Of a DNA stretch of 20,059 bases, positions 1 to 5,253 are shown one piece after another. The position numbers and the translations under genes are program-made. The notes beneath the pieces were generated by a model. It did not search any database. It was given only the letters and a program-made list of their open reading frames with translations, and was not told the origin of the DNA. Where the stretch lies: IMG/VR virus record IMGVR_UViG_3300037264_007271, positions 1-20,059 of that record. The stretch is one strand, 5' to 3'. The stretch is from a virus. The stretch's first letter is position 1; every line of letters starts with the position of its first letter.

Positions 1-106
1 GGATAGGGTCCTCCGTCCACGGCCCCGGGGCGCCGCTGCTCCTCGCCAGGTGGATGCGGTACCTCTCCCGGGCGAAGGCGAAGAATGCGTCAGTCCCGGG
101 CGTCAT
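1..106 (-). CDS. Partial N-terminus of putative DNA base hypermodification enzyme (5-hmdU kinase helical/aGPT-type)
   Basis: Only the first 35 codons are in the window; the gene continues past the left edge. The ATG at 106-104 lies inside the end of the 58-aa gene (17-base overlap). The visible protein runs MTPGTDAFFAFARERYRIHL and then ends in a PWTEDPI segment. From memory of the families, an FxFxxERxxIxL helix followed by PWTxDPIL is the usual opening of phage proteins carrying the helical domain of 5-hmdU DNA kinases and the related alpha-glutamyl/putrescinyl-thymine pyrophosphorylases. These enzymes act on 5-hydroxymethyluracil in phage DNA. The adjacent kinase and the amino acid:DNA transferase at 4396-5253 fit that reading. 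The start and frame are well supported by context. The family call rests on a short stretch and would be settled by the rest of the gene. Confidence 0.6.
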   Translation of the reverse strand, partial: MTPGTDAFFAFARERYRIHLARSSGAPGPWTEDPI

Positions 107-266
107 CGGCAACCTCCATCACGCACAGCTGAACGCCGAACCCCAGCAGGATCAGGGTCACCTCCAGCACCCACGGATGGTCCCAGTCCCAGCTGCAGCC
201 TGCCTCCATCAGGGTCACGCCCCAGAGGTTCCTCCAGTTGTTGATGAAGCCAAGGTGGATCCTCAT
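90..266 (-). CDS. Small 58-aa protein of unknown function in the hypermodification operon
   Basis: The ATG at 266-264 overlaps the TGA of the upstream P-loop kinase as ATGA, and the TGA at 92-90 lies inside the next gene. The protein is 58 residues, begins MRIHLGFINNWRNLWGV, is rich in Trp, and has a hydrophobic stretch at about residues 33-50 (VLEVTLILLGFGVQLCVM). It has no signal peptide and no recognisable catalytic motif. The hydrophobic part could be a single membrane helix or the core of a small beta fold; its spaced acidic and polar residues make me lean towards a soluble protein. Its reality rests on tight coupling at both ends within an otherwise gapless operon. Function unknown; it could be an accessory subunit of the kinase. 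Confidence 0.6.
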   Translation of the reverse strand: MRIHLGFINNWRNLWGVTLMEAGCSWDWDHPWVLEVTLILLGFGVQLCVMEVADDARD

Positions 267-1147
267 GTCGCCCCCGGTCGATTCATGAGTTCGCGGTCGA
301 ACTCGTTGACGTCTAGCTCGGCTGCGGCCTGGCGAATCCAGTCCGGTGCCCGCGCCGCTGCCTTGTCCACTGCGGCCCAGATGTCCCTGCCCGCCTCGGT
401 GTCCTCCTTGCGGAGTACGTCTCCAACGACGAACTCAGAGGCTCTCCCGGCGGCCACGTCTCCCGGGATCGCCTCCACGGTTTCCTTGACCAGGGTCTCC
501 AGGTCAGGCCCCCGTGTAGACTTCGGCACGTAGAAGTTCTCAGCTGCGCGATCTGCCGCCAGGACGAGCGCCTCGTTCATCTCCCGCCCGAGCAACCGGG
601 CGATCGAGAACAGCACCTGCGTCCTGGTCCCCCAGTAGGTCCGGACGCCCAGCTCCTTCAGTCGGTCCATGGCGAGGTGCACGCCGCGCCACTTGGCCGT
701 CGTCGTCCTCGGATCCACGTCCGGCGCCTCGGGGTTCTTCTCCCGCCTCCGGGCGTTCACGGAGGCCAGGCACTCCTCCAGCGGCAGCTGGATGGCGAAC
801 ACGATGATGTTCCGACCCTCCGCGTGCAGCGCGGCGGTCCTCTTGACGTCCCCGCTCAGGAGCAGGCCCTCGTAGAGGACGTCGAACCCCGCGCTGTCGG
901 CGCGGCGGATCAGGTCCATGGTGAAGTCGTAGGACGGGAGCGTGTCGCACCCACCGCAGGCCGTCTCGTAGTGTCCGGGCACGACCAGCCCCCGGGCTCC
1001 CGGCTCCGTGATGCCCAGTTGATAGCAGACGGGCTGTCGGCGCCCCTCGCGCTTCCACTTCATCCTCGCCCCGGGGTATTGCTCCATGATTCGGCGGACG
1101 ATGGTGCTCTTGCCGGAGCCGGAGGTGCCCTTGATTGTGATGATCAC
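263..1147 (-). CDS. P-loop kinase of the hypermodification cluster (candidate 5-hmdU DNA or nucleotide kinase)
   Basis: I place the start at GTG 1147-1145, which overlaps the phosphatase TGA as GTGA, giving 294 aa. The longer frame running upstream to 1660 would cover the whole phosphatase gene and is not the real start. The protein opens MIITIKGTSGSGKSTIVRR, a textbook Walker A (GTSGSGKST, residues 7-15). It continues with REGRRQP (33-39), a PGHYETACGGCDT block (57-69) with a CGGC cysteine pair, and a Walker B-like DVLYEG (89-94). A basic RREK segment at about 131-134 could be the lid. The C-terminal third (after about residue 175) is helical and unassigned. I recall similar GHYETxCGGCDT kinases beside phage base-modification genes. 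The likely role is phosphoryl transfer to hmdU in DNA or to a nucleotide. The kinase fold is certain; the substrate is inferred. Confidence 0.8.
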   Translation of the reverse strand: MIITIKGTSGSGKSTIVRRIMEQYPGARMKWKREGRRQPVCYQLGITEPGARGLVVPGHYETACGGCDTLPSYDFTMDLIRRADSAGFDVLYEGLLLSGDVKRTAALHAEGRNIIVFAIQLPLEECLASVNARRREKNPEAPDVDPRTTTAKWRGVHLAMDRLKELGVRTYWGTRTQVLFSIARLLGREMNEALVLAADRAAENFYVPKSTRGPDLETLVKETVEAIPGDVAAGRASEFVVGDVLRKEDTEAGRDIWAAVDKAAARAPDWIRQAAAELDVNEFDRELMNRPGAT

Positions 1148-1581
1148 GGCAGAGTCCTCGCCAGCTCGAGTGAGGCTCGGATGATGCCCTCGGTCGTCGC
1201 GATGAACTCCGGGCTCTGGTCCCGCATGAAGGCCGGGTCCTCGATGCGCGGCGCCCCAATGTAGGTGCCCAGGCAGACCGTCCTGGGCCACTCGCTGGCC
1301 GGGACTCCCTCGAGGAGGGCGCTCAGCCTGCGGTAGTTGCCCACGTCCATGTAGACCAGCAGTTCCACCGTCGGATCCAGGACCATCTCCCTGGTCACGG
1401 TTCGGGTTCGGTGCGGCGCCAGGTCGTAGCCGTGCCGCGCCATCTCCCGTCGCATCTTGCCCGCCGCGCGGCGCCCCGCGTGGGTGAACCCGGCGGAGGT
1501 GGCGTCCACTCCTATGGATCGGAGGACCGCCTCGCATGCGGGTGAGCGGTTGACGTTGCCGTGGCAGAGGACGAGGATCAC
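1144..1581 (-). CDS. Low-molecular-weight protein tyrosine phosphatase family protein
   Basis: This 145-aa protein has the size and order of the LMW-PTP/arsenate reductase-like family. The active-site loop CHGNVNRS (residues 6-13) gives the CX5R(S) signature, with nucleophile Cys6 and phosphate-binding Arg12 right at the N-terminus. The general acid is probably Asp115 in RIEDPAF, matching the family's late Asp-Pro. The family hydrolyses phosphotyrosine or small phosphomonoesters through a phosphocysteine intermediate. The ATG at 1581-1579 overlaps the amidoligase TGA (ATGA), and its own TGA overlaps the kinase GTG. No exporter or polysaccharide gene is nearby, so the usual partnership with a tyrosine kinase is not evident. 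Placement between an amidoligase and a kinase suggests work on a phosphorylated intermediate of base modification, or on host phosphoproteins. The family is firm; the substrate is unknown. Confidence 0.88.
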   Translation of the reverse strand: MILVLCHGNVNRSPACEAVLRSIGVDATSAGFTHAGRRAAGKMRREMARHGYDLAPHRTRTVTREMVLDPTVELLVYMDVGNYRRLSALLEGVPASEWPRTVCLGTYIGAPRIEDPAFMRDQSPEFIATTEGIIRASLELARTLP

Positions 1582-2504
1582 GACGGCTGCTCCGGGGTTC
1601 GACCCTCAAGGATAGCCGCGATGTTGCGAATGGCAAGATCCCGGGGGATGCTTCCGTCAAGTACCGTGAGCCGGTATCTCTGCTCCATCCAGTGGACGTA
1701 ACTGGGGAACTTGGGCCAGCCCCTGTGGGCGTAGGTTGTCTGGTAGAACCGGATGGGATCGTAACCCGGAGCCCAGTCCAGGGCCATGATCATCCAGTCT
1801 CGGCACCACGAGACGCAGGTGTCCAACTCCCCTGCGTCCAGGGTGCCGGGGAAGTGGCGGAACTCGACCGTGTCCGTCTCCCTCAGCTGCCGCACGTTCA
1901 CGGCGGCGCGGGGCTGACAGTACCAGAGGGGAACCCCGTCGTCCTTGGCGGGCACCTCTCCCTCGAAGAACTCCTGGAGGGTGAGGGCTGTCAGCTGCCG
2001 GTTCACGCGGGCCTCGGGGAGAGTCGTGTGGTGTGAGCGGAGGCGCCTTCGGTATCGGCGCATGGCGCCGATGAACTCCTCGGCGTTGCCCAGGAACTCG
2101 TTCACGTTGGGTCTTGGTATCGGCTCCACCAGCGGGAGGATCCGCTTCAGGAACCGCTGGTTGAAGAAGGCCAGCTTCTTCAGCGCCGGCAGGTCGTCCC
2201 GCAGGCCGGGGACCCGCACGTGCACGTGCAGGTTGCTGCGGTAGTTGACCACGGCATCCCTGCAAGGCCCCTGAAGCAGCTGGCTCATGAGGACCGATTG
2301 GTCGTAGGGATTGGACGTGGGGCGGGTGTTCACCTCGCCGCCGCGGTGGTGGTGCCGCCCGGTGGGGTCGACGGCGATTCCGTTCGAGTTGACCATCGTC
2401 GTGTCGCGACGATCGATGCCGAAGCCGTGGGGGAGCGGGTTGCGCTGGTCCCAGTCGGCCCACTCGTGCTCGCAGCCGAAGGTCAACCCCGTGAGATCTA
2501 TCAT
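1578..2504 (-). CDS. Amidoligase family protein (glutamine synthetase-like fold)
   Basis: The start is ATG 2504-2502, overlapping the flavoprotein TGA (ATGA), for 308 aa; the longer upstream frame runs back into that gene. Motifs occur in the order expected for the Amidoligase_2 family. These are an early acidic metal/ATP site GCEHEW (10-15), GGEVNTRPT (55-63, like the family G-E-hydrophobic-x-T-P motif), NLHVHV (91-96), and EFRHFPGTLD (214-223). These enzymes are relatives of glutamine synthetase and gamma-glutamylcysteine ligase. They are predicted to form amide or isopeptide bonds at ATP's expense, on small molecules, peptides or surface polymers. Here the enzyme sits between a DAO-type flavoprotein and a phosphatase, downstream of an amino acid:DNA transferase. 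It may therefore add an amide or amino acid to the modified base. The family call is strong; the substrate is a guess from context. Confidence 0.85.
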   Translation of the reverse strand: MIDLTGLTFGCEHEWADWDQRNPLPHGFGIDRRDTTMVNSNGIAVDPTGRHHHRGGEVNTRPTSNPYDQSVLMSQLLQGPCRDAVVNYRSNLHVHVRVPGLRDDLPALKKLAFFNQRFLKRILPLVEPIPRPNVNEFLGNAEEFIGAMRRYRRRLRSHHTTLPEARVNRQLTALTLQEFFEGEVPAKDDGVPLWYCQPRAAVNVRQLRETDTVEFRHFPGTLDAGELDTCVSWCRDWMIMALDWAPGYDPIRFYQTTYAHRGWPKFPSYVHWMEQRYRLTVLDGSIPRDLAIRNIAAILEGRTPEQPS

Positions 2505-3322
2505 CTCACCGCCTCCAGGATCCTCTGCGCCGCCCACCCGGCGGCGATGGTGCCGTTCTTCCCGCCCCCGGTGACGATCCACAGGCCGGGCTCCCGCTCC
2601 TCCAGGTAGCAGGGCTTGCACTTCGGCACGAAGGGGCGGATGCCGGTCAGGGCCGTCGCCCGGGCGGGGTCCAGCTTCGTGGCGCCGGCAACGCGGGTCA
2701 GGCACGTCGCCTGCCGCTCGATGGTCCAGTTCTCGGTCTTGATGGCGGATCCGTCCCCGGCCCAGATGGTCATCGGGTCCTGGTTGAACGCCACCAGCTG
2801 CTTGTACGGCGCCCAGGGGCGGATGAAGGGGGTCGGGATCTGGCCCCGCCAGAGGAACGACACGCCCTTCTTCCCCGTGAGCCCGGGTACGGGCAGCAGC
2901 TTCCCGGTCCAGACGCCCGCGGCGACGACCACGATATTGGCGTCGAATCGCATGCCGTCGACCTGCACGAATCGCTGGCCAACGGCCTCCACGGTCCCCT
3001 CCCAGAAGTCCACCGTGGGGTCGCGGAGGATGTTCTCCGGCGCCACCCGGAACACCGGGAAGAAGGCCCGCGTCGGCGGGATGGCGAACTGCAGCGTCTG
3101 CACGCCGTAGAGGCGGTCCAGCAGGGCGAGGCTCGGCTCGTGTACGTCCCTGCCGAGGCCCGCGAACCAGCTGGGCTTCATCAGGCAGGCCGAGGGGCGG
3201 CTACCGCTGTCTGGCCGCAGGTCATCGACGACCACCACCTTGGCCCCCGCATCGTGCAGGGTGCGGGCGACGATGGAGCCGAACAGGCCCGCGCCGACGA
3301 CTATCACCTCGGGGTCCGTCAC
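2501..3322 (-). CDS. DAO-family FAD-dependent oxidoreductase (glycine oxidase-like; candidate flavin lyase)
   Basis: I take GTG 3322-3320, which overlaps the stop of the 64-aa gene as GTGA, giving 273 aa. An ATG at 3349 would overlap that gene by 31 bases. The N-terminus EVIVVGAGLFGSIVARTL carries the GxGxxG dinucleotide-binding loop (10-15), followed by VVVVDD at the end of the second strand. ANIVVVAAGVWTGKLLP in mid-protein is the usual DAO ATG-like FAD contact. GGGKNGTIAAGWAAQ near the C-terminus (about 252-266) is the second FAD-binding loop. It is shorter than typical D-amino acid or glycine oxidases (around 350-390 aa). In studied phages, flavin-dependent lyases trim glycine installed on thymidine; an enzyme of this class next to an amino acid:DNA transferase fits that job. 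A free amino acid oxidase remains possible. Confidence 0.8.
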   Translation of the reverse strand: MTDPEVIVVGAGLFGSIVARTLHDAGAKVVVVDDLRPDSGSRPSACLMKPSWFAGLGRDVHEPSLALLDRLYGVQTLQFAIPPTRAFFPVFRVAPENILRDPTVDFWEGTVEAVGQRFVQVDGMRFDANIVVVAAGVWTGKLLPVPGLTGKKGVSFLWRGQIPTPFIRPWAPYKQLVAFNQDPMTIWAGDGSAIKTENWTIERQATCLTRVAGATKLDPARATALTGIRPFVPKCKPCYLEEREPGLWIVTGGGKNGTIAAGWAAQRILEAVR

Positions 3323-3513
3323 GGGCTGGCGAACTTCGCGGGGGTCCACTTGCGGGTCTCCGGCTCGAAGATGAGGAAGCCGTCAGGCGGGAGTCGCTTG
3401 ATGGCTGCGGCGTAGGACATGGGCTTGTCGGTGAATAGTTGAATCGAGGCGCCCAGGAGCTTTGCCTCCTGGTGCGCCTCGCGGTAGGTCTTCGTCTTGA
3501 TCTTGGGTCGCAT
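3319..3513 (-). CDS. Small basic 64-aa protein of unknown function
   Basis: The ATG at 3513-3511 lies 4 bases after the TGA of the dockerin-like gene, and its TGA overlaps the flavoprotein GTG. The protein begins MRPKIKTKTYREAHQEAKLL, so it is strongly basic at the N-terminus, and later has PPDGFLIFEPETRKW. It has no signal peptide or membrane segment. The pattern suggests a short alpha/beta protein, perhaps a nucleic-acid- or partner-binding accessory. I do not recognise the family. Its reality is supported by exact packing between two well-supported genes. Confidence 0.6.
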   Translation of the reverse strand: MRPKIKTKTYREAHQEAKLLGASIQLFTDKPMSYAAAIKRLPPDGFLIFEPETRKWTPAKFASP

Positions 3514-3517
3514 GAAC

Positions 3518-4399
3518 TCAGTCCCAGCTGCCGAGGGTCCCCAGCAACTCGGGGATGCCGACCGTCATCATAGGCGCGGCGAAGTCCGCGGGGCAGGGTT
3601 CCGGCATCCCCGGGCAGCCGCCCCAGCTGGAGATGATCTCGAGGAGGTCGCCCATGCCGACCAGGCCATCTCCATCGACGTCAGCCTCCTCATCCTCCTC
3701 GCCGATCATCTGCGAGGAGCCGATGACGTAGAACCATCCCACCTGCTGGGCCACGGTTGCCTGACCATAGGGGGAGAGGCCGATGAGCGCCTTGCCCTCG
3801 AGTTCCCAGTAGGGGGTCGGGTAGGTGTATGAGTGGAGCGCCACGGTGGAGGTCAGGGCGCCCTGGTCGAACCGGAGCAGCTCGACTCCGTCCACGAGCA
3901 CGCGATAGGACACGTCGTTGCTGGCATCATCCGAGATCTCCCGGATGAGGCGGATGGCGTGGGGCGTGGAGGCGTCGATGTCCGCGACCACCGGCTGCTC
4001 ATTGAACAGAGCCCAGGGGGAGTTGGGATCAAGGAAGATCTCCTTCACGCCGATCTTCGTCGGAGTGACCGTGATGACCTGGGCGGAGGTGTCGAAGATC
4101 CCGAACGAGAGGGAGCCCTCCTGGATGCCGAGCAGGGTTTGCTCGATCACGTACTCGCTGGGGGCCGCGACGTCGCGGCAGAGGTTGTTGCCCTCCTCGT
4201 AGAGGATCCAGTCCTCGAAGAGGAGGGGACTGATGCTCTCGTAGAGGCACATGCCGTAGATGCCTGACCCGTAGAGGGTGCCGCCATCCACTTGACCCTG
4301 AACCTGATCCACGTTGAAGTCGAACGACCACGGCTCCGCCTGGGCGTAGACCACGTTGCTGACGCCGAGGAGGATGATGATGGGCCAGGACTTTCTCAT
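3518..4399 (-). CDS. Secreted protein with C-terminal dockerin-like EF-hand repeat
   Basis: This 293-aa protein starts at ATG 4399-4397, overlapping the transferase TGA (ATGA) with AGGAG just upstream. The N-terminus MRKSWPIIILLGVSNVVYAQ is a signal peptide, with cleavage likely near VYA or AQA (residues 19-21). The middle (about 25-225) looks like a beta-rich extracellular domain of unknown type, with an acidic EEDEE linker before the tail. The C-terminus (239-293) holds DVDGDGLVG, a calcium loop, followed by a DLLEIISSWGGC helix. A second, degenerate repeat follows: CPAD is kept, the calcium-loop acidic residues are lost, and it ends ELLGTLGSWD. Such paired GDLLxxxxxWG repeats are typical of dockerin-type tails of Planctomycetota secreted proteins. 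A secreted host-like protein inside a DNA-modification operon is unexpected and may be acquired. Function unknown. Confidence 0.82.
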   Translation of the reverse strand: MRKSWPIIILLGVSNVVYAQAEPWSFDFNVDQVQGQVDGGTLYGSGIYGMCLYESISPLLFEDWILYEEGNNLCRDVAAPSEYVIEQTLLGIQEGSLSFGIFDTSAQVITVTPTKIGVKEIFLDPNSPWALFNEQPVVADIDASTPHAIRLIREISDDASNDVSYRVLVDGVELLRFDQGALTSTVALHSYTYPTPYWELEGKALIGLSPYGQATVAQQVGWFYVIGSSQMIGEEDEEADVDGDGLVGMGDLLEIISSWGGCPGMPEPCPADFAAPMMTVGIPELLGTLGSWD

Positions 4400-5253
4400 G
4401 ACTCACTCCTTGTTGGTAGGGCGATCTGGAACGCCGCGGCGAGCTCGCTGTCGGCGACCCACTTGTCTATGGAGTGTCCTATCTCGGTTATGTCGTTCCA
4501 CAGCGGGTAGTGGCCGCTCATGTGGCTCTTCCATTTGCAGAGGATCGTCTCGATCTCCTGCAGGTTGATCCCTCGGTCGCGGGTGGGGGGCGCCTTTCGA
4601 TCGGCGAAGGCGTCCTGGAGGTACTGGACCACCGTGCGAAGCACCCCCTCCCGATCCCGGGGGTTGGCGTAGTCCACCAGCTTGTTGACGTTTCTCCAGA
4701 GCATGATCGCAGCCTCGACGGGCTGCTCGAACATGAACACGTGGCCCATGTCGAAGTTGATGTGATGGCCCAGGCAGCGGTCCAGCATGTCCGCCACCTT
4801 GAAGGCGATCCAGTCGCCGAAGAGGTAGTGACGCTTGACCTCGGCCATGACGGCGCCGATCGAGGGCTGCACGGAGCGGAGCCTGTCGATCATCCGGATG
4901 GGCTCGGGGTAGGCCCACTCCAGCTCCCTGACTGCCTTGATCGCCTTGCCGCCGCGGAAGTGGCGGCGCTCCTTGGCGCGGGGCCACCTTCCCACTGGGG
5001 AGGGCTTCTCGTTGGTCGCCGCGGTCACCATCCACTCCCAGAAGGGCAACCCCTCCTCCGCCATCCAGCAGGCCACCCCAGCGTCGTAGAAGCACCAGTA
5101 GGCCACCAGCCACCGGGCGATCTGCTCCTCCGGCCACCCGAAGTCGGTGCGGCAGCGGTGCAGGGCGACGTAGATGGGATCGAGATCCTCGGTGTCCAGA
5201 AGGTGGGCGCCGAAGGTCTCGATGCTGAGTCGGGGGTATGCCTGCGTTCCCAT
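4396..5253 (-). CDS. Amino acid:DNA transferase / alpha-glutamyl-putrescinyl-thymine pyrophosphorylase family
   Basis: This 285-aa protein starts at ATG 5253-5251, 4 bases after the preceding stop. Conserved-looking blocks are LDPIYVALHRCR (24-35), RWLVAYWCFYDAGVACW (47-63), GRWPRAKERRHFRG (88-101), FGDWIAFKVADMLDR (145-159) and NFDMGHVFMF (166-175). I recognise this series, especially the AYWCFY, RWPR-ERRHFRG and FGDWIAFKxADMLxR motifs, as the phage family that attaches amino acids or polyamines to phosphorylated 5-hydroxymethyluracil in DNA. Its helical scaffold is thought to be related to HhH DNA glycosylases. It leads the run of coupled genes down to base 1 and should define the first adduct on the base. 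I cannot tell from sequence which amino acid or amine is used. Confidence in the family is high, from memory of motifs. Confidence 0.82.
   Translation of the reverse strand: MGTQAYPRLSIETFGAHLLDTEDLDPIYVALHRCRTDFGWPEEQIARWLVAYWCFYDAGVACWMAEEGLPFWEWMVTAATNEKPSPVGRWPRAKERRHFRGGKAIKAVRELEWAYPEPIRMIDRLRSVQPSIGAVMAEVKRHYLFGDWIAFKVADMLDRCLGHHINFDMGHVFMFEQPVEAAIMLWRNVNKLVDYANPRDREGVLRTVVQYLQDAFADRKAPPTRDRGINLQEIETILCKWKSHMSGHYPLWNDITEIGHSIDKWVADSELAAAFQIALPTRSES

Follow-up and report, generated by a model that had tools for sequence, protein, structure and literature searches.

The window analyzed here, an entire IMG/VR record (IMGVR_UViG_3300037264_007271) that is a 20-kb fragment of 20,059 bases, probably carries the second half of a phage pathway for thymidine hypermodification, the last step of which would join an amino acid to a base amine through an amide bond. 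This step would be catalyzed by an amidoligase related to glutamine synthetase (GS). For the wider family, we lean towards a base-agnostic DNA aminoacyl ligase that would join an amino acid through an amide bond to the exocyclic amine of thymidine-derived and 7-deazaguanine bases, whatever the route by which the amine is made, and that would have a dedicated phosphatase partner.

The operon in the window

The amidoligase and its neighbors are arranged as follows.

1..106, minus strand: start of an aGPT-PPlase gene, 35 codons, interrupted by the contig end (PPlase profile, hmmsearch E 3e-12)
263..1147, minus strand: 5-hmdU DNA kinase (HMUDK_HMUD1, PF18748; 30.2 bits, cut-off 27)
1144..1581, minus strand: low-molecular-weight (LMW) phosphatase-like protein, C-X5-R-S and DP motifs intact
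1578..2504, minus strand: amidoligase, a carboxylate-amine ligase of the GS fold and predicted DNA-base amine acylase (ATG start, 308 aa)
2501..3349, minus strand: flavin-dependent DNA lyase (DAO family), about 49% identical to PaMx11 gp47 (PDB 8z2o)
3319..3513, minus strand: 64-aa ORF directly upstream of the flavoprotein, no NCBIfam match
3518..4399, minus strand: secreted-looking 293-aa protein with a dockerin-like DGDGLVGMGDLLEIISSWGG motif, between the AADT and the flavoprotein
4396..5253, minus strand: amino acid:DNA transferase (AADT; PF18724, E 1.5e-18)

The flavoprotein matches the solved 'Flavin-dependent lyase' (PDB 8z2o, whose sequence is that of PaMx11 gp47) at E 3.4e-75, with 48.8% identity to PaMx11 gp47, and the AADT matches the 'Glycinyltransferase' (PDB 8z2m) at E 3e-69. 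An earlier sequence-only reading of this DNA had named the flavoprotein neighbor, and the kinship to these solved proteins confirms both the flavoprotein and the AADT. The AADT is predicted to be of the glycine type, and the flavoprotein to turn N-alpha-glycyl-thymidine into 5-aminomethyl-dU. The same reading held that the amidoligase is translationally coupled to the flavoprotein, and its start indeed overlaps the flavoprotein stop by 4 bp (ATGA). The amidoligase stop overlaps the start of the downstream phosphatase gene (GTGA), and the two overlaps have the layout expected of translational coupling. The 64-aa ORF probably belongs to the same operon. The secreted-looking ORF has no match in Pfam, PHROG or NCBIfam and probably lies outside the pathway. 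Repeats like its dockerin-like motif are typical of planctomycetes, and the motif may be a hint to the host.

Phage PaMx11 has the same operon order (AADT, flavin lyase (FAD), GNAT, kinase, PPlase and a thymidylate-synthase-like gene), with a homologous AADT (about 47% identity to close relatives), flavin lyase (about 49%), 5-hmdU kinase and aGPT-PPlase. The two operons differ in one slot, where PaMx11 has the acetyltransferase and the window has the amidoligase and the LMW-phosphatase-like gene. The PaMx11 type of hypermodification, with its AADT glycinyltransferase, flavin lyase and GNAT and the nucleosides N-alpha-GlyT and 5-NmdU, was reportedly described by Wen et al. in 2024 and by Lee et al. 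The window operon thus looks like the PaMx11 pathway to 5-aminomethyl-dU, with the amidoligase and phosphatase in place of the acetyltransferase. A dUMP hydroxymethylase of the thymidylate synthase family is not found in the window, which ends inside the PPlase gene; in relatives, among them phage Simon, a hydroxymethylase gene of this type comes next. Simon, a phage from raw sewage, shares the window arrangement, and its ligase and phosphatase are 44% and 45% identical to those of the window.

Fold and conserved residues of the amidoligase

The amidoligase ORF is intact, with 308 codons and no internal stop. Against Pfam Amidoligase_2 (PF12224), the protein scores 21.3 bits (E 2.8e-4), slightly below the curated cut-off of 22. 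Relatives exceed the cut-off (24.1 bits for L028 and 24.3 bits for L024; L numbers denote loci with a relative), and PHROG 2443 ('amidoligase enzyme') matches the window protein at E 5.4e-4. It is not a chance ORF, because it has 116 relatives in viral contigs. The four motifs that the sequence-only reading had called intact (GCEHEW, GGEVNTRPT, HVH and EFRHFPGTLD) proved real, and aligning 84 homologues showed them to be conserved. Invariant in all 84 are G10, E12 and E14 (GCEHEW), G55 and E57 (GGEVNTRPT), H95 (HVH), R199, and T212, E214 and R216 (TVEFRH). H93 is kept in 81 of the 84, and N87, R89 and H93 each differ in three or four homologues.

The PDB sequence search with the amidoligase profile gave no real match, and fold comparison was used instead. 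The AlphaFold2 model, built from 49 homologues, has a mean pLDDT of 96.8 and a pTM of 0.93. Its best solved-structure matches (Foldseek, VIA-align) are all proteins of the carboxylate-amine ligase fold. At the top are bifunctional glutathione synthetase (GshAB), gamma-glutamylcysteine synthetase, YbdK, glutamine synthetase and Dop/PafA, and the best match has a Z score of 10.4 over 224 residues (rmsd 5.0). YbdK, gamma-glutamylcysteine ligase, glutamine synthetase and PafA share this fold and the same ExE / E / HxH / R / ExR constellation. GS-like ligases are, however, only 8–15% identical to the window subfamily, and their known substrates are small molecules or proteins. We take the invariant residues to correspond to the ExE motif, the NGSGMHxH loop and the ExR pair of glutamine synthetase, an assignment based on the known motifs of that enzyme and not on superposition. 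In glutamine synthetase, these elements hold the metals, ATP and the acyl phosphate. Because of this correspondence, the amidoligase is most likely active and of the acyl-phosphate type.

Gene neighborhoods of the relatives

Relatives were picked by ligase sequence only, ignoring context, in two alignment-based scans. The first gave 23 and the second 116 viral-contig relatives (80 kept), and three more lie in genome contigs of MAGs. One of these (L108) equals the viral contig L104 in flank length and annotation. A scan of the viral contigs with the single window protein as the query found nothing; alignments were needed. The subfamily is confined almost wholly to viral contigs. Flanks were annotated automatically with profiles built here, and ORF boundaries in this GC-rich DNA are approximate. 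Since related contigs taken at the same site are only partly independent, counts are given for clusters at 60% identity, 32 in all.

Base-modification genes occur in the fetched flanks of all 32 amidoligase clusters. Of the individual relatives examined, almost all lie in gene clusters of this kind. As a background rate, a relative of the window AADT occurs in 92 of 50,697 phage records. A peptidoglycan module of the LUZ24 type (ATP-grasp, COOH-NH2 ligase and GGCT genes) was seen in none of the scanned window genes or inspected neighborhoods. The survey bears out the sequence-only reading, which had proposed a DNA-base tailoring enzyme in a family usually linked to peptide or surface-polymer chemistry. 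Four main settings can be described.

In setting A (the window, Simon and about a dozen more clusters), the ligase accompanies an AADT and a flavin lyase, and the product before ligation would be 5-aminomethyl-dU. Setting B (L021, L024, L031, L053, L101) combines an AADT with a PLP fold-II enzyme and a radical SAM protein, as in phage M6, the base of which is 5-(2-aminoethyl)-dU (PMC6449724); an M6-type 5-aminoethyl-dU is predicted here as well. L026 has PLP and radical-SAM genes as in setting B, and the AADT is absent from its record. In both L026 and L033, the amidoligase is flanked by two radical-SAM genes and a PLP enzyme; neither an AADT nor a thymidylate synthase was found in their 50–60 kb records, and the two loci possibly represent a further base route.

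Setting C comprises about 45 loci, classed with home-made profiles and checked against Pfam on representatives, in which a class II glutamine amidotransferase stands with an AADT of the ViI/Kuttervirus type and a P-loop kinase. This cluster (L028, L029, L051, L052 and about 40 more) also has the amidoligase and the phosphatase. It was not seen in the phage record collection, and thymidylate synthase is absent from most of the setting-C contigs tested. L107 and L110 each have one amidoligase near both the amidotransferase/ViI-type AADT set and the kinase, PPlase and thymidylate synthase set of the PaMx11 type. L025 carries three 5-hmdU kinase paralogues in tandem (L025:15116-16993).

Setting D is a 7-deazaguanine setting (L013, L042 and Vibrio phage 2.275.O). 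In Vibrio phage 2.275.O, the ligase gene is immediately flanked on one side by queF and on the other by a transglycosylase-like gene with a TGT-like DSGGFQ motif. The full records of L013 and L042 (>100 kb) have folE, queD, queE, queC and queF together with transglycosylase-like ORFs, and no AADT, 5-hmdU kinase, flavin lyase or thymidylate synthase was detected in them by these profiles. A queuine-transferase-like gene (PHROG 887) adjoins folE in one QueF contig. The QueF contigs gave no transglycosylase match with Pfam TGT (PF01702), but this is uninformative because the profile also misses the 2.275.O protein. By homology (QueF plus a DpdA-like protein), the base in setting D would be dPreQ1; preQ1 does occur in phage DNA in this form (PMC6884629). 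Because phage QueF and QueF-L are hard to distinguish by sequence (PMC6884629), setting D could partly be dG+ instead.

Substrate of the ligase

The genes adjoining the ligase are those for a base-borne primary amine in three of the four settings (A, B and D). The flavin-lyase, PLP/radical-SAM and QueF routes would have in common an exocyclic primary amine, with the amino-acid carboxylate gone or never there. The base amine is the best-supported shared substrate of the ligase, because the deazaguanine contigs lack thymidine-modification genes. The sequence-only reading had left two options, the freed amine or the remaining carboxylate. Since the amine is common to all three routes, the comparison favors the amine.

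The distribution of acetyltransferases is consistent with this. Among the flavin-lyase contigs, the amidoligase is present in about 13, GNAT in six, neither in four and both in none, and the GNAT profile had no match at any amidoligase locus, even at E<0.01. Such mutual exclusion is what would be expected of two ways to acylate one amine. The flavin lyase stands without acetyltransferase or amidoligase in L123, L127, L129, L005 (Rhizobium phage RHph_TM26) and L006 (Stenotrophomonas phage Sonora), and these are predicted to carry bare 5-aminomethyl-dU.

In the ligase tree, the two metagenome deazaguanine ligases nest among the setting-A ligases (25-row set, 99% support), and at least eight changes of route are needed on it; this is one tree from a short search, with weak deep branches. 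As the QueF contigs lack AADT, kinase and flavin lyase and their ligases nest in this way, one ligase lineage appears to have switched between two bases, a pyrimidine and a deazapurine, with an exocyclic aminomethyl group in common. For setting C, we infer the source of the aminomethyl group: it could be an ammonium branch by analogy with MnmEG, or the amidotransferase could feed ammonia to the ligase instead. This second option in the largest setting, like the lack of thymidylate synthase in most of its tested contigs, counts against the preferred reading.

The strongest alternative, which we nevertheless regard as unlikely, is that the ligase activates the carboxylate of the amino acid on the DNA and condenses it with ammonia or a free amine, either ahead of flavin cleavage or in its place. 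The amino acid put on by the AADT does have a free carboxylate, the class II amidotransferases at about 45 loci could supply the ammonia, and CmoY is a proven precedent for such chemistry. However, the ligase family is kept although that carboxylate is lost in the flavin-lyase and PLP/radical-SAM routes and is absent from preQ1. The ligase also stands where PaMx11-type clusters have an acetyltransferase, which would acylate an amine.

Next in order, and also improbable, is a ligase that makes a free gamma-glutamyl amide, a dipeptide or acylated preQ1, which an AADT or a DpdA-type transglycosylase would then insert into DNA. Genomic linkage would look alike for a ligase that acts on DNA and for one that acts on a free base, a nucleotide or a donor molecule. 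Small molecules are substrates of relatives with the GS fold, and preQ1 in the QueF contigs may be the free base before insertion. Against this, the amine in the flavin-lyase clusters would arise on DNA, after the AADT step; the lyase and ligase genes are in many cases coupled; and one donor would need to suit two unrelated inserters. We prefer DNA itself as the predicted acceptor.

Modification of peptides, the cell surface or host proteins is considerably less probable. It would suit the general reputation of the amidoligase family and the LUZ24-like module, which has been interpreted as peptidoglycan modification (PMC11945000). The LUZ24 amidoligase is likewise phage-encoded and annotated as an amidoligase, but it adjoins ATP-grasp, COOH-NH2 ligase and gamma-glutamyl cyclotransferase (GGCT) genes, whereas the window ligase and the rest of the 32 clusters have base-modification genes. 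LUZ24 gp18 has no recognizable pairwise similarity to the subfamily (BLAST E 2.5; hhalign probability 8%). A GS fold run in reverse, as a Dop-like amidase or deamidase that trims an amide on the base or on a defence-related conjugate, is very improbable: Dop is a GS-fold hydrolase and Dop/PafA structures are among the fold matches, but the clusters show no amide-forming enzyme to reverse and the ligase fills the slot of an acyl-forming acetyltransferase.

Proposed pathway and precedents

On the preferred reading, with ligation to the DNA-borne amine, a hydroxymethylase of the thymidylate synthase type, which relatives have and which would lie beyond the contig end here, would lead to 5-hmdU, which the kinase would phosphorylate in DNA. 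The AADT would swap the phosphate for glycine, and the flavin lyase would cleave the glycine to leave 5-aminomethyl-dU (5-NmdU). The amidoligase would bind ATP-Mg and, as glutamine synthetase does, phosphorylate the carboxylate of an amino-acid-like donor. Attack of the DNA-borne primary amine on the acyl phosphate would give a 5-(aminoacyl-aminomethyl)-dU. In other phages, the substrates of the same ligase family would be 5-(2-aminoethyl)-dU and the preQ1 aminomethyl group. Primary amines are used by some GS-fold enzymes, such as the gamma-glutamylmethylamide and gamma-glutamylputrescine synthetases. By analogy with these, a gamma-glutamyl amide is our tentative first guess for the product.

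Longer side chains are known to block restriction better (PMC6449724). A larger, charged side chain would accordingly resist restriction enzymes better than the small aminomethyl group, and ligation of an amino acid to it is a plausible way to gain protection.

Phages are already known to ligate an amino acid to DNA. CmoY (2025), an asparagine-synthetase-like amide ligase of Synechococcus phage S-B43, ligates glycine to 5cxmC in DNA (PMC12783734). Like the proposed window ligase, it completes the hypermodification by using ATP to link an amino acid to phage DNA through an amide bond. CmoY differs in its asparagine-synthetase-like fold, for which an adenylate mechanism is proposed, from the GS-like window ligase. 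The polarity is also opposite, as in CmoY the base gives the carboxylate and the amino acid the amine, and the base is cytosine, not thymidine or deazaguanine. Profile scans gave no Asn_synthase match in the window ligase and no CmoA/CmoX-type match in the scanned window genes. What would be new here is the enzyme fold and the base amine. Among the papers covered by full-text searches, no earlier report of a GS-fold ligase acting on a base amine was found.

A parallel for the preceding steps exists in tRNA, where E. coli MnmEG and MnmC convert cmnm5U to nm5U and then mnm5U, with the flavin part of MnmC trimming cmnm5 to nm5 (PMC3936742). In both systems, glycine or ammonium is placed on the uridine C5 methylene, a flavin glycine-oxidase-like domain leaves an aminomethyl group, and the amine is then tailored. 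The tRNA system acts on RNA and tailors by methylation, whereas the window pathway would act on DNA.

If the proposal is true, phages would have a third DNA acylation chemistry besides acetylation of the PaMx11 type and CmoY ligation: a relative of glutamine synthetase would use ATP to attach an amino acid to a base amine, a new phage DNA armour. About 120 viral loci would gain a function, and a single enzyme lineage would be seen to have crossed from a pyrimidine substrate to a deazapurine. New nucleosides would be expected, and the enzyme could serve to put chosen groups on amine-bearing DNA. The idea is directly testable, since two phages with named genome records, phage Simon and Vibrio phage 2.275.O, carry the gene.

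The phosphatase

Ligase and LMW-phosphatase-like genes are no more than 300 bp apart in 70 of 76 cases, and the C-X5-R-S motif is intact in all 76 phosphatases. It is missing beside the ligases L002, L025, L026, L031, L045, L053 and L101. Amidoligase–phosphatase fusions occur in distant lineages (L024:9971-11335 and L109:7977-9359), and one phosphatase–kinase fusion was found (L071:3184-4257); these fusions appear to tie the phosphatase to the modification pathway. One candidate role, the resetting of unused 5-phosphomethyl-dU, is disfavored, as deazaguanine contigs without a 5-hmdU kinase also pair the phosphatase with the ligase. Because it persists in these contigs, the phosphatase seems to belong to the ligase step. 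The chemistry proposed above gives this near-constant partner no role, which counts against our best explanation. Near the phosphatase in two deazaguanine loci lies a gene for a NusG/RfaH-like transcription factor, recognized by eye (L013:12474-13010 and L042:10657-11148).
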